Shown in pieces: positions 22,090 to 54,185 of a stretch of DNA of 64,000 nucleotides. The translations under genes and the position numbers were made by a program. How positions within the stretch are numbered: the first letter of the stretch is position 1; each line of letters opens with the position of its first letter. This DNA comes from Chitinophaga sancti (lineage in GTDB: Bacteria > Bacteroidota > Bacteroidia > Chitinophagales > Chitinophagaceae), in NCBI RefSeq assembly GCF_034424315.1, contig NZ_CP139972.1:806001-870000 (forward strand), written 5' to 3'. A model generated the notes under the pieces. It was not told the DNA's origin, did not search any database, and saw only the letters and a program-made list of their open reading frames with translations.

Positions 22090-22755
22090 ATGAAAATAGG
22101 TATCCTGGGCAGCGGTCCCGTCGGCCTTACGCTAGGTGAAGGCCTTGTCAGGGCAGGGCATGAAGTGATCCTCGGCACACGTAACCCGGCCAAAGAATCT
22201 CTGCAACAATGGATACGCAAAATAGGTGGCCACATTACAGCCGTGCCTTTCCGGGAGGCAGCCGCCCAGGGAGAATTACTAGTCATCTGCACCAGTTGGG
22301 CAGGTACACAAAAAGCCATTGAGTCCGCCGGACTATGGAATTTCAAGAATAAAGTTGTTGTTGATGTCACTAACCCGCTGGATGGAAAAGGACCTGACCA
22401 GCAGGGAAGGCTGAGCTTTTCTATCGGACACACCAATTCTGCCGGTGAGCAGTTGCAGGCATGGTTACCTCCAGATGCACATGTTGTAAAAGCATTGAGC
22501 TGTATCGGTCATGAATCCATGTTCCGCCCCCAGCATGAGCAGGACGCACCTACCATGTTCATCTGTGGAAATAAAAGACAGGCGAAAGCCACCGTGACGG
22601 AATTACTACAGCAAATGGGCTGGATTGATATTGTGGATATGGGCAGTATTGAAATGAGCAGGAATATAGAGCCATTGAGTATTTTGTGGTATGCGTACGG
22701 GTTTAGAACCGGTACCTGGCAACATGGGTTTAGGCTGGTGAAGAAGCCGTCGTGA
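22090..22755 (+). CDS. NADPH-dependent F420 reductase-like oxidoreductase
   Basis: This 221-residue Rossmann-fold protein shows the NAD(P) motif MKIGILGSGPVGLTLGEGLV at the N-terminus and GTRNP, then KVVVDVTNPLDGKG, as in NADPH:F420 oxidoreductase-like proteins. In non-F420 organisms these are annotated as NAD(P)-binding proteins with unknown substrate. Its 3' end is oddly repeated: the last 18 bp, including the stop codon, have a 14/18 copy directly downstream. Confidence 0.85.
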   Translation: MKIGILGSGPVGLTLGEGLVRAGHEVILGTRNPAKESLQQWIRKIGGHITAVPFREAAAQGELLVICTSWAGTQKAIESAGLWNFKNKVVVDVTNPLDGKGPDQQGRLSFSIGHTNSAGEQLQAWLPPDAHVVKALSCIGHESMFRPQHEQDAPTMFICGNKRQAKATVTELLQQMGWIDIVDMGSIEMSRNIEPLSILWYAYGFRTGTWQHGFRLVKKPS

Positions 22756-22773
22756 AGGAAGAAACCGTCCTGA
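22738..22773 (+). repeat. 18-bp tandem duplication of a gene's 3' end
   Basis: GTGAAGAAGCCGTCGTGA, the last 18 bases of the gene including TGA, is followed without a gap by AGGAAGAAACCGTCCTGA, which again ends in an in-frame TGA. Confidence 0.65.
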
Positions 22774-22783
22774 GAGAAAAGGA

Positions 22784-22926
22784 GAACCCTATTTCAGGAA
22801 AAAACATTCATAAAAGATAGAACTCGCCTATAAGAATGAACTCATTTTCGGGGAAAAGTCATTCATGAAAGGCAGAACTCACCGATAAGAAGAAGTACAT
22901 TTTCAGAGAAACGGCATTCATGAAAA
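22784..22926 (+). repeat. Locus C of the dispersed ~54-bp element, three diverged copies
   Basis: Three units with 54-55 bp spacing begin at 22784, 22838 and 22892. Each has an ATTTTCnGnG core, then CATTCATGAAAG and GAACTCACCGATAAGAA. They are clearly related to the copies at 3.2 and 42.5 kb (CATTCATGAAAGAGGGAATT, then CACCAATGGTAATGAA). Confidence 0.65.
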
Positions 22927-22953
22927 GCCAACAGCAATAACCCCCCTTTCCCC

Positions 22954-22988
22954 CAAAAAAAGGCCTTCCTGAATAGCTCAGAAAGGCC
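22954..22988 (-). terminator. Terminator of the M1 peptidase gene
   Basis: On the - strand GGCCTTTCTGA pairs with TCAGGAAGGCC (one mismatch) and is followed by a run of seven T. Confidence 0.8.
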
Positions 22989-23000
22989 CACATAACCGGT

Positions 23001-24635
23001 TTAGATCTGTTTGATATTAATATAAAAATTCGGATCCACCTTAAAGTCCTTCTTATTCGTCAGCGTGAACTGTGTTGACTGCCAGTGCTTACCCGGATAA
23101 ATAAACTGATACCCCCTGTCATTCAGCGTCACCTTCACCGGCATGTCAAAATTCTCCACATCTGTCACCCACCTGAACTGCAACTCATTCCCATTAAAAT
23201 GATACTCCAGCGTAGGGATCGTCGTATGCATCAAATACTGCTCAAACACCTTCTTGAAATTCATCTGCGTCATGTAATTCAGGTAATCCAATATATCTTT
23301 CGTCGTCACCGTCTGGTGCCAGAAAGTCTGGTTCATCCCCCGCAGCACATCCCTGAACACATTATCATTGTTTATGATCTGCCTGATGGTATGCACCATA
23401 TTCCCCCCCTTATAATACATATCCCCACTACCTTCCGCATTTACCCCATAAGGCGCAATAATAGGAATGTCATTCCTGATGTTCTGACGCACTCCTATGA
23501 TGTACTCGAACGCCGCTTTCCTGCCAAACTCACACTCCGTATACAAGGTCTCTGAATAGTTTGTAAACGCCTCATGGATCCACATATCCGCCAGGTCCTT
23601 GCTGGTGATATTATTCCCAAACCACTCATGCCCACTTTCATGCACAATGATAAAATCCCATTTCAAACCCCAGCCGGTGCCGGAAAGGTCACGCCCCTTA
23701 TAACCCCAGCCAAAGCCATTGCCATAAGCCACTGCACTCTGGTGCTCCATGCCTAAATGCGGGGCTTCCACCAGTTTGTAACTATCCTGGTAGAACGGAT
23801 ATTTGCCAAACCAGAACTCAAAACATGCCAGCATTTTCTTCACTTCCGCAAAGTGAATGGTAGCGGTATCCACATTATAATCCAGCACCCAATAGCTCAG
23901 GTCCAGTTTACCACCCTCACCGTTATAGGTATCCTTGATCTCTTTGTAATTCCCGATATTCAGGGCCACGTCATAGTTATTGATCGGGTTCGCCACATAC
24001 CAGATATAAGTATCGGTACCATCTTTATTAGATACCTTCTTTTTCAGCCGGCCATTCGAAACATCCACGAGGAAGTTCGGCACGGTCACCGCTATCGTCA
24101 TATCATTCGGCTCGTCAGATTGTGTATCCTTATTCGGCCACCACACACTCGCGCCCAGGCCCTGGCAGGCAGTCGCGATCCACGGACGGCCATCTTTATC
24201 TTTACGCCAGATGATACCGCCATCCCAGGGTGGATTCACCGCCGTTTTAGGACGACCATGGAAAAAGATAGTCACTTTCTTGGTAGCTCCTTTCGGCTGC
24301 TGCGCCAGTGTACGCACCATTACCGCATCGCCATCACGTTCATACGCCAGCTTCTGTTTATCCTGCATCACACTATCCACTTCCATTGGCAATTGCAGAT
24401 CTATCTGCATAATGCTGTCGGGCTTATTGATAAAATAGGTAATCGTATTAGAACCCCCCAGGGTACTATCCTGGGCATTCAGGGCCACATTAAGTTCGTA
24501 GTTCTGTACATCCCACCATTCCCGGGCAGAAGTAATTGAACCACGGAGTGTATCCGCATGGGTGAAGGTCCGCTCCTGGGCGCCAGCCGAAAGAGCTGTA
24601 GCCATAGCCATTAAAAGCAACAATAAGCCACGCAT
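23001..24635 (-). CDS. Secreted M1 family metallopeptidase
   Basis: This zinc aminopeptidase-type protein has a signal peptide (MRGLLLLLMAMATALSAGAQ), an N-terminal beta-saddle domain, a GxMEN-like substrate segment (HLGMEHQSAVAYGNGFG) and the zinc site HESGHEWFGNN near residue 331. The third ligand Glu follows in MWIHEAFTNYSE, giving HExxH-x18-E. At 544 residues it lacks the long C-terminal helical domain of full-length aminopeptidase N. It should trim peptides in the periplasm and is divergent from a peptide-binding lipoprotein gene. Confidence 0.94.
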   Translation of the reverse strand: MRGLLLLLMAMATALSAGAQERTFTHADTLRGSITSAREWWDVQNYELNVALNAQDSTLGGSNTITYFINKPDSIMQIDLQLPMEVDSVMQDKQKLAYERDGDAVMVRTLAQQPKGATKKVTIFFHGRPKTAVNPPWDGGIIWRKDKDGRPWIATACQGLGASVWWPNKDTQSDEPNDMTIAVTVPNFLVDVSNGRLKKKVSNKDGTDTYIWYVANPINNYDVALNIGNYKEIKDTYNGEGGKLDLSYWVLDYNVDTATIHFAEVKKMLACFEFWFGKYPFYQDSYKLVEAPHLGMEHQSAVAYGNGFGWGYKGRDLSGTGWGLKWDFIIVHESGHEWFGNNITSKDLADMWIHEAFTNYSETLYTECEFGRKAAFEYIIGVRQNIRNDIPIIAPYGVNAEGSGDMYYKGGNMVHTIRQIINNDNVFRDVLRGMNQTFWHQTVTTKDILDYLNYMTQMNFKKVFEQYLMHTTIPTLEYHFNGNELQFRWVTDVENFDMPVKVTLNDRGYQFIYPGKHWQSTQFTLTNKKDFKVDPNFYINIKQI

Positions 24636-24680
24636 AGAAATTAATAGTTTTATAATGGAAAGATATTAATTTTCAGTTTA

Positions 24681-26285
24681 ATGAGCATACAACGTTTTTT
24701 AATAATATGGACCGTGGTATTCGGATTGAGTAGTTGTCATCCGGCGCAGACTGAAAAAAGAATGGTATTCCGCTATAACACTGTCGATGGTATTGCCACC
24801 CTTGATCCCGCATTTGCAAAGAACCAATCCATCATCTGGGTAGTCAAACAACTCTATAATACCCTCGTGGAACCCGATCAGCAATTGCAGATCAAACCCT
24901 CCCTGGCCCAAAGCTGGGAAGTGTCTCCCGATGCCAGGGTCTATACCTTTCACCTCCGTACCGATGTTTTCTTTCATGACAACAAGGTTTTTCCCGGCGG
25001 CAAAGGACGGAAGATGATCGCCAGCGATGTGGTATATAGCCTGAAACGGATCATGGACCCCGCTACCGCATCTGCAGGTGCCTGGATCTTCAATGGCAAA
25101 GTGGATCCTGACAAAGGTTTTGAAGCAATCAACGATTCTACCTTCATACTCACCCTGTTACAACCCTTTCACCCGGTATTCGGTATCCTCAGCATGCAGT
25201 ATTGCTCCATTATTCCCCACGAAATCGTAGAGAAATACGGCAAGGATTTCAGGAAACATCCCTGCGGTACCGGCCCTTTTCAATTCGATTACTGGGAGGA
25301 AGGACAAGCTTTGGTGTTACATAAGTTCCCGCATTATTTCGAAAAAGGACTACCTTATTTAGATGCCGTAAAAGTCAGTTTTCTCGATAACAAAGCAACG
25401 GAGTTCCTGCTCTTCCGCCAGGGGCAATTGGATTTCATGAATGATATTGATGCCAGTTTTAAAGATGAAGTGCTGAATAAAAAAGGCGAACTGAAAAAAG
25501 AGTGGGAGGGGAAGATGATCCTGGACAAAACGCCGCAGCTGAACGTAGAATACTTCGGCTTTCTCTTAGACAGTAATAAAACACACAACTCACCCACGCG
25601 CATTAAAAACATCCGTTTAGCCATCAACTATGGCTTTGACAGGGCCAAGATGATCACTTTCCTCAGGAACGGGATCGGTACGCCCGCCAATGCCGGCTTC
25701 ATCCCCGCAGGCTTACCCTCTTTCGATACAAGTAAAGTAAAAGGATATAGTTATAACCCTGCCAAAGCGAGGCAGTTACTGAAAGAAGCCGGTTATCCCG
25801 GCGGCAAAGGATTGCCCCCCATCAAACTATTATCTATTCCCGTCTATGAAGATTATGCAAACTATGCCGCCAACCAGCTCCAGCAAATTGGGATCAAAGT
25901 GCAGGTAGAAGTATTGCAAAAAGCATTATTGCTGGAACAAACGGCTAAGTCTGACGCCCTCTTTTTCAGAGGTAGCTGGCTGGGCGACTATGCCGATGCA
26001 GAGAATTACCTCGCCGTATTTTACAGCAGGAACCCCGCACCCCCTAATTACACCCGCTATAAAAACCCCGCCTTCGACAAACTCTACGAAGCTGCCTTGC
26101 AGGAGAATAACGATAGCGTCCGCTATGACCTTTATAATCAAATGGATAGGATGATTGTAGCCGATGCACCCGTGGTGCCCCTGTTTTATGATGAAGTCAT
26201 TCACCTGGTCCAGCCAAAAGTACAGGGAATGGAAAACAACGGACTGAACCTGCTTGAATTGCGCAAAGTGAAGATAGTAGAATAA
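24681..26285 (+). CDS. ABC transporter solute-binding lipoprotein, family 5 (OppA/DppA-like)
   Basis: This 534-residue SBP_bac_5 protein has a lipoprotein signal (lipobox GLSSC, Cys19) and the family segments VKQLYNTLVEPDQQLQIKPS, SDVVYSLKRIMDPATASAG, GTGPFQFDYWEEGQALVL and IRLAINYGFDRAKM. Characterised relatives bind peptides or nickel for ABC importers. No permease or ATPase gene is adjacent, so the partner must be elsewhere or the protein acts alone. It is divergent from the M1 peptidase, which fits a peptide-scavenging theme but does not prove it. Confidence 0.92.
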   Translation: MSIQRFLIIWTVVFGLSSCHPAQTEKRMVFRYNTVDGIATLDPAFAKNQSIIWVVKQLYNTLVEPDQQLQIKPSLAQSWEVSPDARVYTFHLRTDVFFHDNKVFPGGKGRKMIASDVVYSLKRIMDPATASAGAWIFNGKVDPDKGFEAINDSTFILTLLQPFHPVFGILSMQYCSIIPHEIVEKYGKDFRKHPCGTGPFQFDYWEEGQALVLHKFPHYFEKGLPYLDAVKVSFLDNKATEFLLFRQGQLDFMNDIDASFKDEVLNKKGELKKEWEGKMILDKTPQLNVEYFGFLLDSNKTHNSPTRIKNIRLAINYGFDRAKMITFLRNGIGTPANAGFIPAGLPSFDTSKVKGYSYNPAKARQLLKEAGYPGGKGLPPIKLLSIPVYEDYANYAANQLQQIGIKVQVEVLQKALLLEQTAKSDALFFRGSWLGDYADAENYLAVFYSRNPAPPNYTRYKNPAFDKLYEAALQENNDSVRYDLYNQMDRMIVADAPVVPLFYDEVIHLVQPKVQGMENNGLNLLELRKVKIVE

Positions 26286-26419
26286 ACTTTAACATTTCAT
26301 TGCACCTTATCTATAGCCCGATCCGGGTCCTGGTGAACTATCGCTATGGTTCTGACGTATTTAATGAAGGTAATTAGATTATCTTCGCCCACTTATTGAT
26401 CAAAAAATTAAAAGAGTTA

Positions 26420-27187
26420 ATGACAGCGATATTGATATTTTTCTTCGCGCACTGGTTCCTGTCGCTTTTCTTCCACACTTTCTTTCTGCACAGGTATGCA
26501 TCCCACCAGATGTATACAACAAACAAATTCTGGGAAAAAGTATTCTACTTCTCCACCTGGTTCTTCCAGGGAAGTTCTTACCTGGTTCCCCGTGCGTATG
26601 GCGTGATGCACAGAATGCACCACGAGTTCAGTGATACTGAAGAAGATCCGCATTCACCACACTTCTTCAAGGATGTATGGGCAATGATGGTACATACACG
26701 TAGCATGTATAATGATTTCCTGACCGGCAAGCGTGTTGCTGATGAAGAGTTTACAAAAGATCCACTGCCCGTGTGGAATGCAATGGATAAATTCGGTGAC
26801 AACAACATTACCCGTTTAGCGTGGATGGCCATTTATATTGGCTTTTATGTAGCGTTTGCACCCAATCTGTGGTGGTACCTGTTACTGCCTGTTCACTTCC
26901 TGATGGGGCCTGTACAGGGCGCAGTGGTAAACTGGTGTGGTCATAAATATGGTTATCATAGTTTTGATAACGGGGATCGTTCAAAAAATACTTCTCCATG
27001 GGGTATCCTGCTGTTAGGGGAGTTGTTCCAGAATAACCACCATAAGTTTAAGGACAGCCCGAACTTTGCTAAGAAATGGTTTGAGTTGGATCCAACTTAC
27101 CCGGTAATGAGACTCATGCACTTTGTAGGGATCATTAAGATAAAACCGAAAGAAGCTAAAGTGGTCAGTATGAAAGCCGCCGCTTGA
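26420..27187 (+). CDS. Membrane fatty-acid desaturase-like protein
   Basis: This integral-membrane desaturase-superfamily protein has three histidine boxes: HRYASH near the first helix, RMHHEFSD about 40 residues later, and ELFQNNHHKF in the C-terminal third. These eight or so His residues hold the di-iron centre in acyl-CoA or acyl-lipid desaturases of the delta-9 type (NNHH box). Membrane helices flank the boxes. The ATG at 26420 (MTAILIFFFAHW) is preferred; a TTG at 26396 would add eight residues and cannot be excluded. A strong terminator follows. Confidence 0.9.
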   Translation: MTAILIFFFAHWFLSLFFHTFFLHRYASHQMYTTNKFWEKVFYFSTWFFQGSSYLVPRAYGVMHRMHHEFSDTEEDPHSPHFFKDVWAMMVHTRSMYNDFLTGKRVADEEFTKDPLPVWNAMDKFGDNNITRLAWMAIYIGFYVAFAPNLWWYLLLPVHFLMGPVQGAVVNWCGHKYGYHSFDNGDRSKNTSPWGILLLGELFQNNHHKFKDSPNFAKKWFELDPTYPVMRLMHFVGIIKIKPKEAKVVSMKAAA

Positions 27188-27200
27188 TAAAATAAACAAG

Positions 27201-27234
27201 AAACGCTCTCGCTCCGGCAAGAGCGTTTTTTTTT
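27201..27234 (+). terminator. Desaturase terminator
   Basis: AAACGCTCT pairs with AGAGCGTTT around a 10-nt loop, followed by eight or more T. Confidence 0.9.
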
Positions 27235-27448
27235 ATACCCTTGTCTGCCGGCCCCCTGTAATCCATCTCAATACGTTCCCGGCATCTTCGACATGCAATA
27301 GCTGGCTGGCAATGCGAAGGAACTGAATAGGCCGGATACCGCTGTGATCAGCGAAAGCCTATTTCGCTGGTGTACAGGGGAACAGGCCCCAAAAATGGAA
27401 TGCCTTTTTATATGAATCTTCCCCTATCTTACAAATAAATATCCCCTA

Positions 27449-28894: not shown

Positions 28895-28904
28895 TACAAA
28901 TAAT

Positions 28905-28939
28905 AAAAGAGCTGCCTCATATACGAGACAGCTCTTTCT
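28905..28939. terminator. Bidirectional terminator between serine hydrolase and HAD genes
   Basis: AAAAGAGCTGCCTC pairs with GAGACAGCTCTTT with one mismatch. A and T tracts flank the stem between two convergent genes. Confidence 0.85.
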
Positions 28940-28941
28940 AT

Positions 28942-30263: not shown

Positions 30264-30316
30264 ATGATGATGTTCGGTTAAAACGGTGAATTGATGTATT
30301 GACCTGTTCTGATGCT

Positions 30317-30510
30317 GATCGCCTAAGATCGAATCCCAACTAGCCAGAACTTGAAAGCCCAGGTAACTGATCGCCTAAGATCGAATCCAAACTAGTCAGA
30401 ACTTGAAAGCCCAGGTAACTGATCGCCTAAGATCAAATCCCAACTAGTCAGAACTTAAAAGCCCAGGCAACTGATCGCCTAGATTAAATCCAAACCAGCC
30501 AGAACTCTCT
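30317..30510. repeat. Tandem array with exact 52-bp period
   Basis: Units begin at 30317, 30369, 30421 and 30473, spaced by exactly 52 bp; the fourth is incomplete. The core is GATCGCCTAAGATCGAATCC, then AACTAGTCAGAACTTGAAAG and CCCAGGTAACT. The whole unit is conserved, so this is not a CRISPR array. It lies between the dprE1 terminator and dprE2. Confidence 0.9.
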
Positions 30511-30608: not shown

Positions 30609-31937
30609 TTAATTGATCCCCAGTCGTTCGGATTGTACAGAATGGAAGATCTTATCACCATTATACGCTTTTACAATTTCTGCAAAACGCTGTGCATTGG
30701 GATAACTCTGCCAGAATACCTCCTTCTTCATCCGGGCATCTTTGGAAAGGTACAACCTTCCACCGTATTGCAGCACCACTTCGTCCAGTTCATCCAGGAA
30801 GGCAAAGAGCCCTTTGCGCACCGGGAAATCCAGCGCCAGGGTATAACCTTGTCTTGGGAATGAAATCAGGTCGTCCTGGTGACCAAATACTTTCAGCACC
30901 GCAAGGAAAGAACCCAGTCCTGCATCGCTGATGCGCTTCAGGATCTCGACCAGCCCTTCTTTCTTATCCAAAGGCAGCACGAACTGGTATTGTACAAAAC
31001 CAGCCTTGCCATAACCTCGGTTCCAGTGCAGGATCGCATCCAGGGGATAAAAGAAAGGTTCGTAAGGGATCACATTGTTGATCTCTCTTTTGGTATTCTT
31101 TGCGTAATACAGCCAGTTGAAGGCCTTTACCGTGAAGGTGTTGAGGGCAAATGATGGAAAATTGAAGGGAACTGAAAGCGGGCGTTTATCGGGCAGACTC
31201 AGTGGCGCCGCCGCCTGCTGCGTATTCAATTCTTCCTTTGTAGCATGTTCACCAACAATGAGAATACCGCGGCCAAAACTATCGCCTTTTTGCAGGCAAT
31301 CGATCCAGGCCATGCTGTAGGTATACTGATTATATTCTTCGAAAAGGCGGATCAGTTCATCGAGGTTTCGCGCCTTGACCTGCTTCTGTTTGATATACGC
31401 AGTTTCAATTTTCTTGAGGCCGAACTTCACACGGGTAATGATACCGGTCAGCCCCATGCCGCCGCAGGTAGCCCAGAACAGATCGGGCAGTACCTCCTTC
31501 GAGCAGGTGAGGATTTCCTTTTTACCTGTGATCACGTCCATATCAATGATGTGGTTCGAGAACGAGCCCTCTGCATGGTGATTCTTACCATGAACATCGG
31601 AAGCTACAGCACCACCTACGGTAATAAACTTTGTACCGGGAGTGACAGGGAGGAACCAACCCTTAGGTACCACGACCTCCAGGATCTGGTCTAAGGTGAT
31701 ACCCGACTGGCATTCGAACACGCCGGTCGACGTATCGAACTCCAATACCTTGTCAAACTTAAGAGTGGAAACACTATTGGTAGCCAGCGAGGCGTCACCA
31801 TAGCAGCGGCCATTGCCGCGGGCAATGATGGAAGAATGTGAGGATATCATATCCTCAACCTGATCTACCTGCGTAAATGTTGTCTCATCGCAGGAGATGA
31901 CGGGGTAATTGCCCCAATTTGCTAACCGTTTTTCCAT
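30609..31937 (-). CDS. dprE1: DprE1-like FAD oxidase (decaprenylphosphoryl-ribose 2'-oxidase family)
   Basis: This 442-residue VAO-type flavoprotein has an N-terminal FAD domain (IARGNGRCYGDASLA; PGTKFITVGGAVASDVHGKN) and a DprE1-type substrate domain (FFYPLDAILHWNRGYGKAGF, then VQYQFVLPL). Similarity to mycobacterial DprE1 runs the whole length, and the active-site Lys is kept in LYLSKDAR. The position of the benzothiazinone-reactive Cys387 of M. tuberculosis DprE1 is Ala368 here (GYTLALDFP). It should oxidise a polyprenyl-phosphoryl-ribose at C2'. Its ATG overlaps the UbiA gene's stop codon by one base. Confidence 0.93.
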   Translation of the reverse strand: MEKRLANWGNYPVISCDETTFTQVDQVEDMISSHSSIIARGNGRCYGDASLATNSVSTLKFDKVLEFDTSTGVFECQSGITLDQILEVVVPKGWFLPVTPGTKFITVGGAVASDVHGKNHHAEGSFSNHIIDMDVITGKKEILTCSKEVLPDLFWATCGGMGLTGIITRVKFGLKKIETAYIKQKQVKARNLDELIRLFEEYNQYTYSMAWIDCLQKGDSFGRGILIVGEHATKEELNTQQAAAPLSLPDKRPLSVPFNFPSFALNTFTVKAFNWLYYAKNTKREINNVIPYEPFFYPLDAILHWNRGYGKAGFVQYQFVLPLDKKEGLVEILKRISDAGLGSFLAVLKVFGHQDDLISFPRQGYTLALDFPVRKGLFAFLDELDEVVLQYGGRLYLSKDARMKKEVFWQSYPNAQRFAEIVKAYNGDKIFHSVQSERLGIN

Positions 31938-36160: not shown

Positions 36161-36892
36161 ATGGAAATTTACCTATATGATGGGTCTTTTGAAGGCTTCC
36201 TGACAGCCGTGTTCGAAACTTATAAAAAAGGAGGGCTGATCAGGAAGGAAAATGCCTTCGTTCCGGACATGTTTGCGACTACAATTAGGGTCGAAACCGA
36301 CCTCCTGAAGGCTGATAGGGTATGGGCCGGCCTAAGCAAAAAACTATCAGCGGATGCCTTGCACCAATATTTCTCAGCTTTTCTCTCCGAATTAGAGAAT
36401 ATTGAAGATCAATTGTTAAACTACACCCGGCATGTATTTGAAAATCAGGTTTCTGTAGAGCGTGATTTTGGGAATCCTTTTGTGCTCTTTGTTGCCCAGA
36501 CGGCTCGCAAGGTACATCGGGAGAAGCATCGGATGGAAGCCTTTGTGCGGTTTCAACTGACAAAAGATGGTATTTATTTCAGCCTCGTTTCGCCGGACTA
36601 TAACGTCCTTCCTTTGATCATCCGGCACTTTAAAGACAGGTACGCGGATCAGCGCTGGATGATTTATGACCAAGCCAGGAACTATGGAATTTATTATGAT
36701 CTGGAGACAGTGGAGGTGATCTGGATGGAGATGGATAAACACGAAGGCATATGGGTAGAACATGAGGCAGATTACCAGGCTCTGTGGCAGACCTATTATA
36801 AAGGGGCAAATATCGCCAGCCGGGTGAACAGGAAATTACAGTTACAGCATATGCCTAAAAGATATTGGAAGTACCTGCCTGAACTGCGGTAA
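36161..36892 (+). CDS. TIGR03915 family putative DNA repair protein (DUF4130)
   Basis: This 243-residue partner of the radical SAM protein begins MEIYLYDGSFEGFLTAVFET, the diagnostic N-terminus of TIGR03915/DUF4130. In many bacteria the domain is fused to a UDG-type uracil-DNA glycosylase; here it is a separate protein without that domain. It is transcribed with the radical SAM gene (2-bp gap). Its last 19 codons (HMPKRYWKYLPELR and stop) are repeated downstream in frame as a 57-bp tandem array. Confidence 0.9.
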   Translation: MEIYLYDGSFEGFLTAVFETYKKGGLIRKENAFVPDMFATTIRVETDLLKADRVWAGLSKKLSADALHQYFSAFLSELENIEDQLLNYTRHVFENQVSVERDFGNPFVLFVAQTARKVHREKHRMEAFVRFQLTKDGIYFSLVSPDYNVLPLIIRHFKDRYADQRWMIYDQARNYGIYYDLETVEVIWMEMDKHEGIWVEHEADYQALWQTYYKGANIASRVNRKLQLQHMPKRYWKYLPELR

Positions 36893-37095
36893 TTACAATT
36901 ACAGCACATGCCTGAAAGGTATTAGAGTTACTTACCTGAACTGAGGTGATTGCATTTACAGCACTTGACCCAAAGTTATTGGAAATACTTACCCGAACTG
37001 AGACAATTACAATTATTAGAAGTACTTACCAGTACTAAAGTAACTCTAATTTCACCCTATGCCCCAAAGTTATCAGCACTCCCTGCCTGATCTAA
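36842..37095 (+). repeat. 57-bp tandem array grown from the end of the DUF4130 gene
   Basis: Unit 0 (36842-36898) contains the gene's last codons and stop. Unit 1 starts at 36899 and unit 2 at 36956, both exactly 57 bp (19 codons) on. Unit 2 still reads SYWKYLPELR in the original frame, while unit 1 keeps a stop at the same place (CTGAGGTGA). Degenerate further pieces reach 37095, next to the stop of the convergent DUF763 gene. Confidence 0.85.
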
Positions 37096-41775: not shown

Positions 41776-41778
41776 TAT

Positions 41779-41839: not shown

Positions 41840-41899
41840 TTACAAATCCGGACTTCCACTTACAAATCCGACCTCCCTCTTACAAATACGGTTTCATCT
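41840..41899 (-). repeat. 20-bp tandem array at the thioesterase 3' end
   Basis: Three 20-bp units start at 41840, 41860 and 41880 (+ strand TTACAAATCCGGACTTCCAC and variants). The third contains the gene's stop codon and last codons (KPYL), so the two outer units are copies of the gene's tail. Confidence 0.7.
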
Positions 41900-42455: not shown

Positions 42456-42575
42456 GCCTTTCAATAAAAACATTCATGAAGGAGGGAATTCACCAATGGG
42501 AATGGACCCCATTTTCAATAAAAACATTCATGAAAGAGGGAATTCACCAATGGTAATGAAACCCATTTTCAATAA
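42456..42575 (+). repeat. Locus B of the dispersed ~54-bp element
   Basis: Two nearly identical units lie exactly 54 bp apart (CATTCATGAA at 42471 and 42525), each with CATTTTCAATAAAAA, then GGGAATTCACCAATGG and AATG. A further half unit follows. It matches the single copy behind otsAB and the diverged triplet at 22.8 kb. Confidence 0.85.
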
Positions 42576-42740
42576 AAGAAGCAGCGCCTCCAATAATCCG
42601 GAGGCGCCGCCAACTACAAACAAATTGATCACCGACGCTTGCCTGTCAGCAATCAGAAACTATTATTTTCCAGGTGTCTTACCTGACTTTAAAGAATTCT
42701 TATTAAACTCCCTGGTATCTCTAAACAGACCATCCTTAAT

Positions 42741-42830
42741 CCCCACTTACCCTACATCTCCACCTCTTCCCAAACTAGAAACCCCCACTTACCCTACATC
42801 CCTCACCTCTTCCCAATCCTAGAAATCCCC
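42741..42830 (-). repeat. 42-44-bp tandem duplication at the TonB-type gene's 3' end
   Basis: On the - strand the gene ends GGGGATTTCTAG, followed by GATTGGGAAGAGGTGAGGG and ATGTAGGGTAAGTG. The block then recurs with GGGGTTTCTAG, TTTGGGAAGAGGTGGAG and ATGTAGGGTAAGTG. The repeated block therefore begins inside the coding end and includes the stop codon. Confidence 0.75.
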
Positions 42831-45293
42831 ATTGCCTCCCTGCTCTTCACCCCCTTTCTTCCCTTCCTTCTTCTTCCCCGCATCTATCTTCCCAAACCGC
42901 CAGCTCACATTAATCCTTGCTTCCCTCGTCGCTCTCTTCCTATAATACTCCTGGTCTGAAAACTCCGTATGCGTATAAGACAAACTCCTGTCCGTATTGA
43001 AAATATCATTCACACCCATTGACACCACCAGCGATCTATCCTTCAACAACTCCTTCCTCACTGCCGCATCCACCGTATATTTCCCCGCTCTCTCTCCCTG
43101 CGCCATAATCTGCTTAGACTCATAAATACCCGTCACCTGCAAGGTCGTTCTATACGGCAATTTGTAATTCGTATTGATCTTTCCAAAGAATATAAACCCT
43201 GAATTCGTCAGTTGATTCGCCAGGTTAGAAGCATTGATCTTCGTTTGCGCCATATTCATATTCGTGGTCACATCCCAGTTAGTGGTCAGCTGATTCCGCA
43301 CCGTAATCTCCGCTCCGTATGAATTACGCGTATCCGCATTCACCGGGTAAGACAGCACCACTTTCTGCGCTGTACCATTCACCATAATCGTCGTGTCTGT
43401 TGAATAATCAGTGATCGCATTCTGCGTATTCCTGTAATACATTGACACCATCACATTGTGCTTTCTGTTGAAATCTTTCAGGTAACTAAACTCAAATGAA
43501 TTGGTAAACTCCGGCTTCAATGTCGGGTTACCACGACTTGCACTCTGCGCTGTATAATTCAGATTCGGCAACAGGTCGCGGAACCAGGGACGACGCACAC
43601 GACGCGTGTAATTCAGCTGCAGTTCATGATCCCCCTTGAACTTTTGAGACAGGAATACACTGGGAAACAAACTAATAGGGTAGCTGATTTTATAGTTACT
43701 TTTGGCCGTACTCGTCATATCTCCGCTGTAAAAGGACTGCTCACCCCTCATACCACCCATGTAACCAAAATTACCTAACTGGCCTGAGTAACTGATATAC
43801 CCCGCATTGATCGTTTCACGATAATGATAATTATTAGAAAGGGAACTATCCAATACATAATCTCCGCTGGCATTGTTGAGGCCCATGGTCGTCTGCGTAT
43901 TATTAAAGATGCGGCTGGTGCTACGCAAACCTGCTTCTACCTTTGACGTCTCAGACAGTGGATTTACATAATCAATCTGTCCGGTCATGTAAGTAGTATT
44001 GCCACCGCCATATGAATAGCGCTTAGCCGGTGCCGTTGGGGTATCGATTGCAACATGCCCCAAAGTATAATACTGCAAAGAATAATCACTCCCATCATCA
44101 CTCGTGGCGTAGTTGTAATTGAAATCAGCCGTCAGCTCATGCCCCTGTTTTGCAAAGGTGTGCTTGTAGCCCAGCTGACCCGCATAATTACGGAAATTGT
44201 GATTGGAATTATCCATACCTGAACCATACCGCACCTGCTCTTTCCCAGTATTCAGGTTGTACAGCGTCAGGTTATTATCATCTCTGAAATCTCCCGCATT
44301 GATGCTACCGGCAATCGTGAAGGTATTGCGGTTGTCCATAAACCAATCGAACCCGATCCTGCCATATTGAAAACGACGGCTCTGCTCACCTTGCTCATAC
44401 TGATCCAGGTAGGTGGTTGTATCCGTGCCGATGTTTTTGCGGAACAGGTGTTCCTTCGCAGAACCTTTGCGGCTACGGATATTATAACTCAGGGAGAGAT
44501 TGTACTTCTCACGGCGGATGCTGAAGTCGAAACCGCCATTTGCACCACCCAAAGTAGACGCACCGGCATTCACCTGCCCGTTGATCCCCGCTTTCCTGTT
44601 TTTCTTCAATACAATATTTAATATACCACTCACACCTTCCGCATCATATTTTGCAGATGGGTTAGTGATCACTTCAATATTTGCAATCGCATCTGCAGGA
44701 ATCTGATCCATGGTCAGGGTCGTAGGACGGCCATCCACGAAAATGGTAGGTGCTCCATTACGAACAGTCACATTACCGTCAATGTCTACACTAACAGCAG
44801 GCACCTGTTTCAATACATCGGTAGCAGTACCACCTACGCTTGAAATGTTTTTATCCACATTGAACACGCGCTTATCAATAGCCATGGTATAAGCAGGCTT
44901 TTCGCCTACGACCTCAACAGCGGCTAATACTTTCGCATTTGTGCCGAGCTTGATATTACCAACATCTATAATGTTATTTTTTGAAGAAAGTACAATTGCT
45001 TTATAAACGGTAGTGAAGCCAATGAAATTTACTTTTACGAAATACTTTCCCAATGCAATCTGCGGAAAACTGAAATCACCATTTGGTTTCGACAGCATAC
45101 CGGTGACTACGCTGGAATCCACAGCACGAATGATAGCCACTGAGGCATACTCTATGGGAGCATTGGTTTGCTCATCAATTAATTTTCCCTGAATTGACCC
45201 TTGTTCAGGGGATTTTGGGTTGGTTTGTTGAGCATAAGAAAAAGTCAGAAATGACAGCGTCATTCCCAAACATAAGGAGACAAATTTGTGCAT
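42819..45293 (-). CDS. TonB-dependent receptor-like outer-membrane beta-barrel protein
   Basis: This 824-residue protein has a signal peptide (MHKFVSLCLGMTLSFLTFSY), a carboxypeptidase-regulatory-like domain (about 30-115; GSIQGKLIDEQTNAPIEYAS), a plug domain (VDGRPTTLTMDQIPADAIAN; SAKYDAEGVSGILNI) and a large barrel. The final beta strand appears to be ARINVSWRFGK, after which an unusual Lys/Gly/Glu-rich tail of about 22 residues runs to the stop. No SusD partner is adjacent, so it is of the stand-alone outer-membrane-beta-barrel type. Substrate unknown. Confidence 0.9.
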   Translation of the reverse strand: MHKFVSLCLGMTLSFLTFSYAQQTNPKSPEQGSIQGKLIDEQTNAPIEYASVAIIRAVDSSVVTGMLSKPNGDFSFPQIALGKYFVKVNFIGFTTVYKAIVLSSKNNIIDVGNIKLGTNAKVLAAVEVVGEKPAYTMAIDKRVFNVDKNISSVGGTATDVLKQVPAVSVDIDGNVTVRNGAPTIFVDGRPTTLTMDQIPADAIANIEVITNPSAKYDAEGVSGILNIVLKKNRKAGINGQVNAGASTLGGANGGFDFSIRREKYNLSLSYNIRSRKGSAKEHLFRKNIGTDTTTYLDQYEQGEQSRRFQYGRIGFDWFMDNRNTFTIAGSINAGDFRDDNNLTLYNLNTGKEQVRYGSGMDNSNHNFRNYAGQLGYKHTFAKQGHELTADFNYNYATSDDGSDYSLQYYTLGHVAIDTPTAPAKRYSYGGGNTTYMTGQIDYVNPLSETSKVEAGLRSTSRIFNNTQTTMGLNNASGDYVLDSSLSNNYHYRETINAGYISYSGQLGNFGYMGGMRGEQSFYSGDMTSTAKSNYKISYPISLFPSVFLSQKFKGDHELQLNYTRRVRRPWFRDLLPNLNYTAQSASRGNPTLKPEFTNSFEFSYLKDFNRKHNVMVSMYYRNTQNAITDYSTDTTIMVNGTAQKVVLSYPVNADTRNSYGAEITVRNQLTTNWDVTTNMNMAQTKINASNLANQLTNSGFIFFGKINTNYKLPYRTTLQVTGIYESKQIMAQGERAGKYTVDAAVRKELLKDRSLVVSMGVNDIFNTDRSLSYTHTEFSDQEYYRKRATREARINVSWRFGKIDAGKKKEGKKGGEEQGGNGDF

Positions 45294-48469: not shown

Positions 48470-48498
48470 TTATATAAATTATAATGTTATTTATTTCT

Positions 48499-48639: not shown

Positions 48640-48640
48640 T

Positions 48641-50431
48641 CTATATCTCTATTTGCCAAATGTCTTTTGATAGTTCGAATAACAAATTCTGTCTGTCAAT
48701 TATGGTTTCTTTGTTCCAAAATTTGTAGGATTTAAGTTTTTGATTTAACCTCGTAACTGATGAATTTATACCAATTACATCTAATCCTGCTATTGATTTT
48801 GAAATATAAAACGGGGACTTTGAATATTCAATAATTTTTTTTGAAAAAAAGTCATTGCCAACAACAATATTCATCGTTTTTTCAAGTAATGTTAAATTAC
48901 CCAATCTCACCTTCAAATCATTGTAATCTTCACCAATTTCATTACGAAGGCTTTCTGTGGGGTTCAAAGGTAAAATATGTTCAATCTCAACTCCTTTTGT
49001 AATATAATTATCTAAAACTTGTGGCTCATATGAACCTCTTCTTTCTTGGTCTAAATATTGCGCGATTTTGGCTAAAATGTATTTAATTCTGTATTGTTGT
49101 AAGTTGTTTTGACGGGCTTCCATAAAGTATAATCTGTATTCATTTTCCTTTGATATAATTACAGGTTGAATATTTTCTTTGACGAAATCATTCAGTTCAG
49201 TTCTGTTTTTTATTCTTAAAACAATTTTAGCCCATTTTGAAAAATTCCTTTCAAACTCTTTTGTAGGCTCTTTTGTTATGAAATAGTAAAAAACTAAGGT
49301 TTCTATCTGCTTGGCAAAATGATTAAATAAATCTTGTGAGAGATTTCTGCCAGCCAAGAGTAAAATCAGATGTTGTTTAAATGCTCCCCCTCCAAGTTTG
49401 GAAATATTGTCTAAATAGACATTTTTGCTCCCATCTTTGTTTTGTCCTTTAAAGAACCTTATATAACAGGTTGCATTTTCTAAAAGAAGTTCGACAAACT
49501 CAAAAGGCTCTTTTTCATAGTTGCATTGAGCGACATTTTCGGGCCTAATAAACCATTTATAGATTTCTTCTTCTCGGATAATTTCTTCCCCACGTTGATT
49601 ATTTACTTTATAATTGGATATTATGAAATAGCGAAGGAAGCGCAAAGGCTTTTCGTTCTCCTTTTCCAGTAGTTTAATGAGCGTTTTCCATTTTTCCTTT
49701 AATTCGTTAAAATTATTTCTATCAACTTGTCTGAATAAGAGGTTTTTCAGGAGATCCATAGGGTTTAAACCAACTCCTCTTTCATTGATTGTTTCAAATA
49801 TTTTTAGGGCATCATTTATTTCCGGCGTTTCAATTTGGATGAACTTTAGCCTTCTGAAAATGTAAACAAAAAACTTCTTAAGTTTTATAGGGTCTTCATC
49901 TTCCTTAAATCTATTTTTAAGAAATGAGATTACATTTTCATATGCATTATAAAGCCTTTCGGCAGAACCGATTAGGTTTTCAGGCCGTTCTGAATTATTT
50001 GCAATTTTTGAAAGAATGTTTGAACTATCCTTATATTGTAATTCGAGTTTATAACAGTCAACACTATCTCCTAATGAATTGACCGTTTTATCTTTAATCA
50101 TTCTTTCTATCGTGTCGGTGTCAATTTCTCGTTCTTTGTAAAGTTTCTTAAAAGCACAAATTATTAGGAAAATAGAGGTTGTTCTTTGTTGTCCGTCGAT
50201 CAATTCATAAAATCCGTCAATATTTTTAAAAACGACAGTACTTCCTATGAAATATTCCTTATTAGGATTAAAATCAAATTCTTCGTAAATATCATCTAAA
50301 AGTTGATTGATTTGCACTTCAGTCCAAACGTATTCTCTTTGATAATCGGGAACAACATAGAAATTTTTAAAACAATTTTCCACATCCAAATAATTAAATT
50401 GTATTTGGATATTACTTATGTTATTATTCAT
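48641..50431 (-). CDS. DUF262/DUF1524 protein (GmrSD-like putative defence nuclease)
   Basis: This 596-residue protein has an N-terminal DUF262 ParB-like domain: VVPDYQREYVWTEVQINQLL, FIGSTVVF, and DGQQRTTSIFLI near residue 77 with the DGQQR motif. The C-terminal DUF1524 HNH-like region has VEIEHILPLNP near 481 and RLGNLTLLEKTMN. The same domains make up GmrS and GmrD of type IV restriction of glucosylated DNA; single-chain relatives are common in defence islands. Its base composition is visibly more AT-rich than all neighbours, indicating transfer. It stands alone. Confidence 0.88.
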   Translation of the reverse strand: MNNNISNIQIQFNYLDVENCFKNFYVVPDYQREYVWTEVQINQLLDDIYEEFDFNPNKEYFIGSTVVFKNIDGFYELIDGQQRTTSIFLIICAFKKLYKEREIDTDTIERMIKDKTVNSLGDSVDCYKLELQYKDSSNILSKIANNSERPENLIGSAERLYNAYENVISFLKNRFKEDEDPIKLKKFFVYIFRRLKFIQIETPEINDALKIFETINERGVGLNPMDLLKNLLFRQVDRNNFNELKEKWKTLIKLLEKENEKPLRFLRYFIISNYKVNNQRGEEIIREEEIYKWFIRPENVAQCNYEKEPFEFVELLLENATCYIRFFKGQNKDGSKNVYLDNISKLGGGAFKQHLILLLAGRNLSQDLFNHFAKQIETLVFYYFITKEPTKEFERNFSKWAKIVLRIKNRTELNDFVKENIQPVIISKENEYRLYFMEARQNNLQQYRIKYILAKIAQYLDQERRGSYEPQVLDNYITKGVEIEHILPLNPTESLRNEIGEDYNDLKVRLGNLTLLEKTMNIVVGNDFFSKKIIEYSKSPFYISKSIAGLDVIGINSSVTRLNQKLKSYKFWNKETIIDRQNLLFELSKDIWQIEI

Positions 50432-50715
50432 TCGTGAACTTTATTTAGATACATTGAGGTTTGCCTACTTCCTGGAAAAGCTAAAATACAAAAAAAGACA
50501 ATGCGGAAAACTATCTTGGTTCTCTCAAATTACCTAAACTTTCACACAAACCCTCTAACAGAAAACTCTCACTCAAGAATAGGCTAGCAAACCTACGACC
50601 TGCCCAATAAAGGCTTGTGTTCTTTTCTTTAACGTTATCGGGATGTTTGACAATTTCTTTTTACCCGATCATTGCAGGCTCCGTTTGAAGAAACAGGAGA
50701 ACTGTTTTACCTGTT
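50432..50715. other. 284-bp spacer bordering the transferred gene
   Basis: No gene is recognised. The first half is AT-rich like the DUF262 gene. The second half returns to the local composition before the oxidoreductase stop codon, so the right-hand edge of the insertion probably lies here. Confidence 0.4.
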
Positions 50716-53025
50716 TTATCCCAGGGATCTCGCTTCTGCGTACTTAATTTTAATAATCACCAGCTTCGAAGTCGGCGTATTACTCTTATCGGCCACACTA
50801 TCCAGGGGCACCAGTGCATTTGCTTCCGGGAAATAAGTCGCCGTGCATCTCTCCGGAATATCATAAATCACCACCAGGAAATTCCTCACCACCCGCTCAA
50901 CGCCACCAAACTCATTGTACAAGTCTACCAAATCTCCACCTTTCAGCCCTTGCTTCGCCGCATCTGCTTCGTTCATCAATATTACCCGCCGCTCCTGGTA
51001 AATTCCCCTATACCGGTCATCCAGCCCATAAATGGTCGTATTGAACTGGTCATGACTACGAATCGTCATCATCATGAGTTCATCGTCTGCCAGTTCAAAC
51101 CTGGTAACAGGGGCTACATTGAAGTTCGCCTTGCTGGTCTTTGTATTATACTTCCCCTCGCGGGCACCATTGGGTAAATAAAACCCACCCGGATGCCGTA
51201 CCCGCTGGTTGTAATTATCAAATCCCGGGATCACCCTTTCCAGGTCATCACGAATATAATCATAGTGCTTTTCGTATTTATCCCAGTCCACCACGGTCCG
51301 ATCTTTTAAAGTCGCTTTTGCCAGCTGGCACACGATCAATGGTTCACTTAGCAATTGCTCAGAAACCGGTGGCAGGTTCCCTTTTGACATCTGCACCACG
51401 CCCATAGAATTTTCGCAGGTCACGAACTGGCGTTCCCCGTTTACAATGTCCTGATCACTACGGCCGAGCGTCGGTAAAATCAGGGCTTCCCGGCCATGCA
51501 CCAGGTGACTTCTGTTCAGTTTAGTAGAGACATGCACTGTCAGCTTACAATTGCGCAATGCATTGGCCGTCAGTACCGTATCCGGGGTGGCAGAAAGGAA
51601 ATTGCCGCCCATGGCAAAGAACACCTTGCCCTCCCCATCCCGCATAGCGCGGATAGCGGATACCACATCCCAGCCGTATTCCCGGGGAGGGTTGAAACCA
51701 TAGACTTCCTGGATTTTGTCCAGCAAAGCTTTGGACGGTCTTTCAAAAATACCGACTGTACGATCACCCTGTACATTGCTATGTCCGCGAACGGGGCAGG
51801 TGCCGGCACCGGGTTTGCCAATACTGCCTTTCAGCAGGAGGAGGTTCACGATCTCCCGGATGGTATCAACGGCATTTTTGTGCTGGGTAAGGCCCATGGC
51901 CCAGCAGGCAATGATCTTCTTTTTATGTACCAAAGCCTGCACAGCAGCCTGGATCTGTTCGAGGGGCACACCGCAGTCGCTGACTAACTGATCTAAGTTC
52001 TGTTCCTGTAAATGACGGATGTAGGCCTCATACCCGCTGGTGTTGTTTTGGATAAATGCCGGGTCGAATACAGTGCCAGGGGCTTTTTCTTCTGCTTGCA
52101 GGAGTAGGAGATTGATGGCTTTGATCAGGGCCATATCTCCATTTATTTTTACCTGGAGGTAGAGGTCTGTGAGATGGCTGCCCACATGCAGCATACCTTT
52201 TACGGTTTGGGGGTTCATGAAGTTCAGGAGCCCGGTTTCCTTCAAAGGATTGGCGGAGATGATGGTCACGCCTTTGGCCTTTGCTTTTTGCAGGGCGGTG
52301 AGCATGCGGGGGTGATTGGTACCCGGATTTTGCCCGAGGATGAAGATCACGTCTGCTTCGTAAAGATCATCGAGAGTGACGGAGCCTTTGCCGATGCCGA
52401 CAGATTCACTCAGGGCGACGCCGCTGGATTCGTGGCACATGTTGGAGCAATCGGGCAGGTTGTTCGTGCCGAATTCTCGGACGAATAACTGGTATAGGAA
52501 AGCCGCTTCATTGCTGGTACGGCCGGAGGTGTAAAAGATGGCCTCATTGGGAGAGGAGAGGGCATTGAGGTGGGCACCGATTTTTTCGAAGGCTTTGGCC
52601 CAGGTAATGGGGCTATAGTGGGTGGCGCCTTCGGCAAGGTACATGGGTTGTGCCACCCGGCCTTTTTTGCCGATTTCGTAGTCGGTAAGCCCGGCCAGGT
52701 CAGCCACGCTGTTTTGCGCAAAGAAGGTGGCGTCGAGGCGTTTGGTGGTGGCTTCTTCGGCGACTGCTTTTGCGCCGTTTTCGCAGTATTCGGCAATGCC
52801 GGAACGTTCATCGTCGGGGTCTGGCCATGCGCAGCCGGGGCAGTCAAAACCGTTTTTTTGGTTCAGTTTATTGAGGGCTTTGAGGCCTCTGATGGCATCC
52901 ATTTCCGCGAGAATGTGCTGTGCGGCGTGGAATACCCCCGGGAGGCCGGCAGCGGCAGTTTTGGGTTTGCCAAGGCGGAAGTGTCCTGTGAGTGTTGCTG
53001 GATTTTCTGCGTTGGGTTGTTTCAT
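50716..53025 (-). CDS. FdhF/YdeP family molybdopterin oxidoreductase
   Basis: This 769-residue protein of the formate-dehydrogenase-like molybdopterin family has an N-terminal Cys pair (FDCPGCAWPD, Cys62 and Cys65), the cofactor domain (YTSGRTSNEAAFLYQLFV; CSNMCHESSGVALSE) and a C-terminal molydopterin-dinucleotide-binding domain (LMMMTIRSHDQFNTTIYGLD). The full four-Cys iron-sulfur motif of classical enzymes is not seen, as in YdeP. Reaction unknown; formate oxidation should not be assumed. fdhD lies directly upstream in the same orientation. Confidence 0.92.
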   Translation of the reverse strand: MKQPNAENPATLTGHFRLGKPKTAAAGLPGVFHAAQHILAEMDAIRGLKALNKLNQKNGFDCPGCAWPDPDDERSGIAEYCENGAKAVAEEATTKRLDATFFAQNSVADLAGLTDYEIGKKGRVAQPMYLAEGATHYSPITWAKAFEKIGAHLNALSSPNEAIFYTSGRTSNEAAFLYQLFVREFGTNNLPDCSNMCHESSGVALSESVGIGKGSVTLDDLYEADVIFILGQNPGTNHPRMLTALQKAKAKGVTIISANPLKETGLLNFMNPQTVKGMLHVGSHLTDLYLQVKINGDMALIKAINLLLLQAEEKAPGTVFDPAFIQNNTSGYEAYIRHLQEQNLDQLVSDCGVPLEQIQAAVQALVHKKKIIACWAMGLTQHKNAVDTIREIVNLLLLKGSIGKPGAGTCPVRGHSNVQGDRTVGIFERPSKALLDKIQEVYGFNPPREYGWDVVSAIRAMRDGEGKVFFAMGGNFLSATPDTVLTANALRNCKLTVHVSTKLNRSHLVHGREALILPTLGRSDQDIVNGERQFVTCENSMGVVQMSKGNLPPVSEQLLSEPLIVCQLAKATLKDRTVVDWDKYEKHYDYIRDDLERVIPGFDNYNQRVRHPGGFYLPNGAREGKYNTKTSKANFNVAPVTRFELADDELMMMTIRSHDQFNTTIYGLDDRYRGIYQERRVILMNEADAAKQGLKGGDLVDLYNEFGGVERVVRNFLVVIYDIPERCTATYFPEANALVPLDSVADKSNTPTSKLVIIKIKYAEARSLG

Positions 53026-53384
53026 TGCGCGATGTTTTCTTGTGCTTGATGGATGGTGTCAGGACACCATCTGAAAATTTTAATCTTAAAAATTCAATCC
53101 TTTCTTCTTTATGATAATTACTCTTTGCACTTGATCTCTCTCTTCTTCATGATAATTACTCTTTACACTTGATCTCTTTCTCCTTCATGATAATTACTCT
53201 TTACACTTGATCTCTCTCTTTCATGATAATTATTCTTTACACTTGATCTCTCTCTTTCATGATAATTATTCTTTACACTTGATCTCTTTCTTCTTCATGG
53301 TAACCACTCTTTACACTTGATCTCTTTGTTCTTCATAATAATCACTCTTTATACTTGATCTCTCTTCTTCATGATAATCCCTTT
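53026..53384 (-). repeat. 36-38-bp tandem array between fdhD and the oxidoreductase gene
   Basis: Eight units with ATGATAAT-type cores start near 53111, 53149, 53187, 53223, 53259, 53297, 53335 and 53371 (spacings 38, 38, 36, 36, 38, 38, 36). The + strand core is CTCTTTACACTTGATCTCTC, then TTCTTCATGATAATTA. The last 36 or so bases of fdhD, stop codon included, align as a ninth, older unit. The array fills the intergenic space. Confidence 0.9.
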
Positions 53385-54185
53385 TTACAATTCAATCCGC
53401 TCTTCTCCATGGTAAATATTGAATCTCCCTTCCCGCAAAAATCCAATCAAAGCAATATCCCATTCCTTCGCCACCTTCACCGCCATACTACTTGGCGCTC
53501 CCACCGCAGCAATCAGGGGAATCCCTGCCACCGCAGCTTTTTGAATCAATTCAAAACCTGCGCGGCCACTCAATAATAATCCAAATTCACCAAATGATAG
53601 CCCTTGCTGCCAGGCAGCACCAATCAATTTATCCACCGCATTATGTCTGCCAATATCCTCTCTCAGGTGAAACAATTTCCCCCCGGTATTAAATAAAGCC
53701 GCAGCATGCAAACCGCCTGTATTATCAAAAACAGCCTGCTGCATGCGTAACTTTGCTGGCAGATCATGCAGAATACCTGCAGGAATTTTTATATCACTTG
53801 TATTTTTATTCACTGGTGCGTAGATGGCGTCCAGTTCTGTTTTGCCACATACCCCGCAACTGGAATTAGCCAGGAAATTTCGCTGGGCCGCCTGCAAAGA
53901 CGGGCGTATACCTGCCTGAAGAGTGACAGTTGCTATATTATCATTATAAACGATGGATTGAATGGCGTCATAGCGGGTAATGATTCCCTCTGTGAACAAA
54001 AATCCCGCTGCCAATTCTGCATCCTGTCCGGGCGATCGCATGGTGACGGTGATGCTTTCCTGCTGATTGTTGTGAACCAATCTTATTTCAAGAGGTTCCT
54101 CAGCAGCCAGGGCATCCTGAGTAGCTGTAGCAAGTGTATCGGTTACTCTTGTAATGTGCGCGTAGGAAATGGCTGGATTAGACAT
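53385..54185 (-). CDS. fdhD: Formate dehydrogenase accessory sulfurtransferase FdhD
   Basis: This 266-residue FdhD family protein passes sulfur from a cysteine desulfurase to the molybdenum cofactor of formate-dehydrogenase-like enzymes. The catalytic Cys pair is in NSSCGVCGKTELDA (Cys110 and Cys113). EDIGRHNAVDKLIGAAWQQG and LSGRAGFELIQKAAVAGIPL are further family signatures. It precedes the FdhF/YdeP gene, its likely client. About 360 bp of tandem repeat separate the two, and the repeat appears to derive from this gene's 3' end. Confidence 0.95.
   Translation of the reverse strand: MSNPAISYAHITRVTDTLATATQDALAAEEPLEIRLVHNNQQESITVTMRSPGQDAELAAGFLFTEGIITRYDAIQSIVYNDNIATVTLQAGIRPSLQAAQRNFLANSSCGVCGKTELDAIYAPVNKNTSDIKIPAGILHDLPAKLRMQQAVFDNTGGLHAAALFNTGGKLFHLREDIGRHNAVDKLIGAAWQQGLSFGEFGLLLSGRAGFELIQKAAVAGIPLIAAVGAPSSMAVKVAKEWDIALIGFLREGRFNIYHGEERIEL

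Follow-up and report, generated by a model that had tools for sequence, protein, structure and literature searches.

Young tandem arrays in a Chitinophaga chromosome, some of them founded on the coding ends of neighbouring genes

Introduction

Why would a tandem array next to a gene begin inside that gene's coding end and take in its stop codon? This question is raised by a 64,000-bp stretch of DNA (bases 806001-870000; hereafter, the window) from the single-contig chromosome (8,421,768 bases) of Chitinophaga sancti, a soil bacterium. For this stretch, an initial annotation had pointed out five such loci, along with a sixth and weaker one, and had suggested that a repeated process amplifies the 3' ends of genes. 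Here, we consider which of the arrays start from a gene tail and what could have placed them there. Positions are those of the window unless chromosomal coordinates or another locus are indicated.

Materials and methods

Alongside the genome under study (G000), we used Chitinophaga silvisoli (G031), the closest named relative as judged by a test gene (97% protein identity), and other relatives of the same genus (G014, G046, G048, G036, and G026). Genes beyond the list of open reading frames were called with our own hexamer script, and stops are therefore surer than starts. Arrays were counted with Tandem Repeats Finder (TRF) in 1.664 Mb of the source genome and 0.6 Mb of G014. Excluded before the edge counts were 27 arrays within coding sequences (CDS) of the source genome, arrays with a period below 9, and those of which under 10 bp lay in a gap.

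In the shuffle test, the non-coding part of an array was compared with the last 60 bp of the neighbouring gene and scored against random gene ends. In the flank test, each gene end was compared with its own flank at a threshold score of at least 14, and rows with fewer than 30 comparable stretches were dropped. A first tail test (score of at least 16) had kept only rows with 20 or more comparable downstream stretches, and long gaps were lost as a result. The zone around the window comprises 0.68-1.11 and 1.31-1.33 Mb. For blind placement, units of the observed period were dropped randomly onto array-free gaps, with the present array-free gaps treated as the ancestral ones.

Results

Two strong tail arrays

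Two of the proposed arrays stand out as strong, the first of which lies at the end of fdhD.

53103-53415, minus strand: 38-bp array of 8.4 copies (TRF), founded on the fdhD coding end and stop
53385-54185, minus strand: fdhD (Pfam FdhD-NarQ), founder of the array
50716-53025, minus strand: molybdopterin oxidoreductase gene, beyond the array

Proposed at 53111-53420 with a 36-38 bp unit, this array extends 31 bp into fdhD and takes up the greater part of the 359-bp spacer before the next gene, and the 42-bp gene tail matches at least six of its copies (24/30, 25/32, 28/37, 28/37, 26/35, and 23/31). The same spacer measures 26 bp in C. silvisoli and is a 4-base gene overlap in G014, and the short stretch and gene start past the array resemble the entire C. 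silvisoli spacer. Moreover, the outermost copy still reads GGATTGAATT and is tail-like, and the inner copies are uniform and have a different text in common. The Pfam domain of FdhD extends to at most two residues from the C-terminus, and a tail copy at a score of at least 14 was found in the source genome alone among all 30 usable loci (30/30).

The second array follows a DUF4130 gene.

36161-36892, plus strand: DUF4130 gene, founder of the array
36830-37015, plus strand: 57-bp array of 3.3 copies (TRF), the first copy being the DUF4130 coding end and stop

Here, the array claimed at 36842-37095 (57 bp) has 63 bp within the CDS, and the tail aligns with four downstream copies (45/55, 40/52, 32/44, and 22/30). 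The Pfam domain of the protein reaches residue 241 of 243, and the source genome is alone among the usable loci (17/17) in having a tail copy at a score of at least 14. In G014, the gap matching the one after 36892 holds an array with a different unit, founded on the tail of a convergent DUF763 gene (27 bp inside the CDS), of which a two-copy form is seen by eye in G046. Separately, a remnant in G026 (L041; contig C6, about 320525-320596) corresponds to just the 24 C-terminal residues of the DUF4130 protein, and its distance to fdhD, about 14 kb, is like that in the window; the gene itself seems to have been lost there and its tail left.

Weaker sites

The other proposed sites are these.

42741-42831, minus strand: 42-bp array of 2.1 copies (TRF), 13 bp into the end of an outer-membrane beta-barrel gene
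41840-41891, minus strand: 20-bp array of 2.6 copies (TRF), 12 bp into the end of a 4HBT thioesterase gene
22740-22773, plus strand: end of an F420-oxidoreductase-like gene and a single near-copy (14/16); weak
61913-61956, no strand assigned: 12-bp array (TRF), short of the neighbouring stop codon

Support is moderate for the array placed at 42741-42830 (42-44 bp), which has 13 bp in the CDS and a best tail copy of 16/19; the gene tail is present without an array in C. silvisoli and G014. As had been claimed for 41840-41899 (20 bp), the array there does enter the CDS, with tail copies of 11/12 and 10/11 and an identical array-less tail in C. silvisoli. It is short, however, and array register is what supports it, since its tail is missing from the 45 best-scoring tails of the first tail test. 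At 22738-22773 (18 bp), one 16-bp tail copy holds up (tail score 12; null 8.1 ± 1.7), but TRF reports no array at this spot, the array proper starting 37 bp beyond the stop (22792); in G046, an independent tail copy is seen by eye after the F420-oxidoreductase-like gene. The sixth case, put forward as a weaker one at 61874-61986 (12 bp), did not survive, given that the TRF array stops 28 bp before the stop codon at 61984 and that no tail copy was found. Overall, the tail-array observation is real but uneven and is partly confirmed, with two strong sites, one moderate, one short, one single near-copy, and one failure.

Other arrays and unit relationships

By TRF and direct reading, the window holds ten intergenic arrays (1,611 bp in total), of which four enter a gene's coding end. 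Those listed next, all without an assigned strand, complete the set.

22792-22925: 55-bp array, intergenic only (TRF); related to 42459-42577 and to one G014 array
30315-30506: 52-bp array, intergenic only (TRF); in a gap of 345 bp (33 bp in G014)
42459-42577: 54-bp array (TRF); dispersed-family member whose overlap with a gene start depends on a doubtful start codon
54274-54634: 47-bp array between divergent genes (TRF); in a gap of 604 bp (112 bp in G014)
55730-55848: 22/44-bp array between convergent genes (TRF); the matching G014 gap has an array with another unit

No gene edge is touched by the arrays at 22792, 30315, 54274, 55730, and 61913, and the one at 42459 touches only the doubtful start. 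Nine gaps in the window contain arrays, as do six of their counterparts in G014, and in the two gaps where both genomes have one (after 36892 and after 55656) the units are different.

Across the sampled genomes, TRF gives head-to-tail copies of units of 9 to about 116 bp. When compared with one another, 70 of 73 units (the other 16 of the 89 being too short to compare) resembled none other above the shuffled maximum, which bears out the earlier view of independent loci with differing sequences and periods and not one mobile repeat. On this comparison (73 of 89 units), a mobile or shared repeat unit was rejected, with a three-array family excepted. This sole dispersed family joins 22792-22925, 42459-42577, and an array in G014 (C1:7847639), and the unit moved or spread between loci, since all three arrays contain a unit with ATTCATGAAAG. 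As a separate observation, the gene at 30609-31937 has a tail copy (18/24) located 37-60 bp past its stop, which supplies one arm of what may be a terminator hairpin and, by eye, has more in common with the relatives' tail than with the gene's own.

The gene tail as founder

Outside the window, two more genes have tails with high scores. The carboxyl transferase gene (L008:4923-6560) scores 33 in the source genome, whereas among 85 relatives, 84 of them usable, a single one barely reaches 14, and the permease gene (L007:8602-10272) scores 36, with none of five relatives reaching 14. Because C-termini are conserved in relatives that have no array, the tail came first and the array is new. Judged by these alignments, we can show the gene to be the founder of its array at four genes (fdhD, DUF4130, carboxyl transferase, and permease). 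The claim that the gene tail founds the array is thereby upheld, both by tails conserved in array-less relatives and by the newness of the fdhD spacer, and that such arrays recur is seen from another species as well (G014).

A comparison with shuffled gene-array assignments had been suggested for the complete genome, and as run on a sample of two Chitinophaga genomes it was passed, with 19 of 86 array-tail pairs at p ≤ 0.01 when about 0.9 were expected (10/55 in the source genome and 9/31 in G014, for expectations of 0.6 and 0.3). Gene starts at this level numbered 4/57 and 1/31, respectively.

In the flank test, the numbers scoring at least 14 were as follows.

Tails: window 6/42, surrounding zone 10/114, elsewhere in the sampled genome 9/611, G014 14/299
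Starts: window 2/42, zone 3/127, elsewhere 7/653, G014 4/327
Random intergenic points: window 4/31, zone 14/87, elsewhere 6/407, G014 17/172

Even without the window, tails in the zone exceed those elsewhere (Fisher p = 0.00017), a contrast that is partly post hoc because the zone was drawn after the first census. The first tail test had given 7/394 tails, 3/422 starts (5/389 for longest-ORF starts), 14/219 intergenic points, and 2/395 CDS points in the source genome. Its zeros among the tails of relatives (0/74 in the G014 block, 0/28 in G048, and 0/32 in G036) are not relied upon, since long gaps had been dropped and a G014 tail at 5960211 later scored 26. In small samples, array density was 4.3 (G048) and 0.9 (G036) per 10 kb of intergenic DNA.

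Arrays and gene borders

Blind placement predicts that 13-14% of arrays would cross a stop, 14-15% a start, about 2% both, and 69-70% neither. Among the 89 arrays observed, 18 cross a stop, 6 a start, 1 both, and 64 neither, so that a gene edge is crossed in 25 of 89 cases against a blind prediction of about 27. Stop-crossing arrays thus number 18, or 19 when the array that crosses both edges is added, versus about 12 (14) predicted, and start-crossing ones 6 (7) versus 13 (15), one of the six being that at 42459 with its doubtful start. The bias toward tails is mainly a shortage at gene starts, and the small residual excess of stop-crossing arrays may reflect a modest 3' preference. In fact, tails carry copies far above what shuffling gives, yet not clearly above what duplication blind to gene borders gives.

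Gene starts can be founders too. In locus L117 (chromosomal 1310001-1330000), two start-founded arrays occupy 7664-8399 and 11010-11559, where the start codon and first codons are repeated upstream of a LytTR response regulator gene (L117:8350) and an HlyD-family gene (L117:11497), respectively.

Discussion

A probable border-blind origin

We think it probable that these are ordinary young minisatellites, with a founding duplication that ignores gene borders and with selection that tolerates the result at 3' ends. Local tandem duplications would arise irrespective of gene borders, and one straddling a stop would leave the gene its frame and stop and put the second copy in non-coding DNA, so that it would be nearly neutral and survive. 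Thereafter, slippage or unequal crossing-over, the mechanism that we infer, would amplify the copies and homogenise the inner ones. Duplications within genes would mostly be purged by selection, and those across starts would be partly removed, since they would add false starts and shift the promoter and ribosome-binding site. Such selection at gene starts is the presumed cause of the tail bias, and the difference between stops and starts in this respect suffices to explain the start shortage. The outcome would be young, lineage-specific arrays, some of them tail-founded, and short operon junctions stretched to hundreds of bases. What a uniform neutral process does not explain is the uneven distribution of arrays along the chromosome.

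Replication terminus

62810-62833, plus strand: likely dif site (chromosome dimer resolution site) with core ATAATTTA[T/C]ATTATGTTAA, outside all arrays

This site was called with a dif-like search pattern modelled on Escherichia coli, and a single instance of its core is present in every one of the six Chitinophaga genomes searched; on both grounds, the window seems to be situated at the replication terminus. A noisy sign change in GC skew falls in this broad region as well, roughly 0.1-0.2 Mb rightward of dif, and the best DnaA match is at 4.316 Mb. Terminus biology near dif, such as raised recombination, could then be what drives the arrays, with tail founding as a by-product. In the source genome, the intergenic DNA up to 500 kb from dif (63.2 kb) has 36 arrays and that beyond (139.2 kb) has 22, and arrays of at least 100 bp make up 26/36 of the near set and 6/22 of the far set; the p value by bin permutation is 0.002 (0.006 when the window is excluded). 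Against this, a shift test that preserves clumping gives 5/84, the contrast within 100 kb has p = 0.15 once the window is left out, and three sampled stretches at 0.4-0.8 Mb to the left of dif are devoid of arrays. Nor is the dif block of G014 denser (10 arrays in 19.1 kb intergenic versus 27 in 46.7 kb elsewhere): all ten of its arrays lie within 80 kb to the left, with none in the stretches sampled up to 0.16 Mb to the right, and those of at least 100 bp amount to 8/12 near dif and 7/19 far from it. On balance, we regard a terminus-driven origin as unlikely. The crowding of arrays around dif, marked in the source genome and not clear in G014, is a lead and not a result, albeit a testable one as to where in the chromosome such events take place. 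Within the array-rich zone, there is also an 80-kb stretch (chromosomal 1120001-1200000; GC 0.40-0.43) with no intergenic array, possibly acquired DNA.

Processes at 3' gene ends

The initial annotation had favoured a process that specifically amplifies 3' gene ends, for which R-loops, stalled polymerase, or fork collisions at transcription termination could seed the duplications. This would fit the 18 stop-crossing versus 6 start-crossing arrays (two-sided p = 0.023), as well as the excess of tails over starts at a score of 14, both in the zone plus window (16/156 versus 5/169, p = 0.011) and in G014 (14/299 versus 4/327, p = 0.014). Tails, however, do not exceed random intergenic points in the zone plus window (16/156 versus 18/118, p = 0.27), and in G014 the difference runs in the opposite direction (14/299 versus 17/172, p = 0.034), although both comparisons are tilted against tails because the points come only from gaps of at least 105 bp and arrays lengthen gaps. 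Further against it are the 13 arrays that divergent gaps hold in 59.1 kb, with 12 in 32.1 kb of convergent gaps, and a stop-crossing share close to that of blind placement. Since blindly placed founders already account for the share of edge-crossing arrays, a special 3'-end process is unneeded, and we consider it improbable; its claimed specificity is at odds also with intergenic points that bear repeats about as often as tails or more so, and with the start-founded arrays. Distinctly improbable, too, is a composite of the last two readings, namely a terminus-centred burst of tandem amplification in the Chitinophaga lineage, 3'-biased via transcription termination, that would make intergenic DNA out of coding tails and separate coupled operon genes.

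Selection for stops or RNA structure, and run-on

We judge it very improbable that selection has retained the arrays for the usefulness of repeated stop codons or of a 3' mRNA structure, both of which had been suggested. In favour of this reading, the stop is in register in 15 of 28 aligned copies (11 genes, with up to six copies per gene; a twelfth, with its stop at 61984, had none), but in the other 13 it is lost or outside the alignment. Besides, the first stop already terminates translation, and the arrays are missing in relatives. Special RNA structure was rejected on the folding z-scores of five downstream stretches (0.11, -1.21, -3.37, -0.75, and -0.48), where the stretch at -3.37 includes a separate terminator hairpin. 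Finally, extension of a gene into a pre-existing array after loss of its stop would equally place a CDS end within an array, but it is extremely improbable, given that array-bearing tails match the conserved C-termini of array-less relatives, and it is contradicted at fdhD, DUF4130, carboxyl transferase, and permease, the four genes examined.

Comparison with known systems

With array-less relatives as outgroups, the arrays document one birth route for bacterial intergenic DNA in which a gene end is copied past its own stop, as where closely set operon genes, 26 bp apart or overlapping, have come to be separated by a 359-bp spacer. The set of young arrays also offers a means of measuring how tandem duplications originate and are filtered by selection at both gene ends. 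What is of lasting value is how clearly the arrays record that new intergenic DNA is made from gene tails. Our literature search, which covered titles and abstract openings, found no description of tail-founded arrays, and a precedent may exist in print.

As for known repeats, the rnc-fpg1 region of the Mycobacterium tuberculosis complex (ETR-F / VNTR3239) has a repeat block of 279-358 bp where other mycobacteria have a gap of a few bases, and the repeats, which start 40 bp past the rnc stop, vary in copy number among strains in correlation with fpg1 mRNA (PMC2734929). The likeness is in the lineage-specific growth of an intergenic spacer by tandem repeats, and the difference is that the part of that report drawn on here does not describe the repeats as copies of a gene end (PMC2734929). 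By analogy with rnc-fpg1, it is possible that a longer spacer has an effect in Chitinophaga as well.

MIRUs touch gene ends and are one homologous dispersed family. Their tandem units of 40-100 bp are located at many intergenic sites, according to the same part of that report (PMC2734929). The Chitinophaga arrays share with them the tandem intergenic units, but 70 of 73 units are mutually unrelated, and only one family, of three arrays, has homologous units across loci above the shuffled maximum. In the marine Beggiatoaceae, TAACTGA direct repeats are intergenic and overlap the upstream gene's stop codon in 13 cases, a likeness to the present arrays, although they are a single heptamer genome-wide that lies mostly upstream of starts (PMC4679880). 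Each Chitinophaga site instead has its own unit, of differing period and sequence, made from local sequence.

The closest resemblance is to bacterial minisatellites (VNTRs), which consist of head-to-tail units of about 10-100 bp and vary by lineage in presence or copy number. So do the present arrays, going by TRF and by the matching gaps of G014, G031, and G046, where they are absent or different. They agree as well in having imperfect copies that are uniform inside and divergent outside, as seen at fdhD, and differ only in that the founding unit in Chitinophaga often includes the last codons and the stop of a gene.
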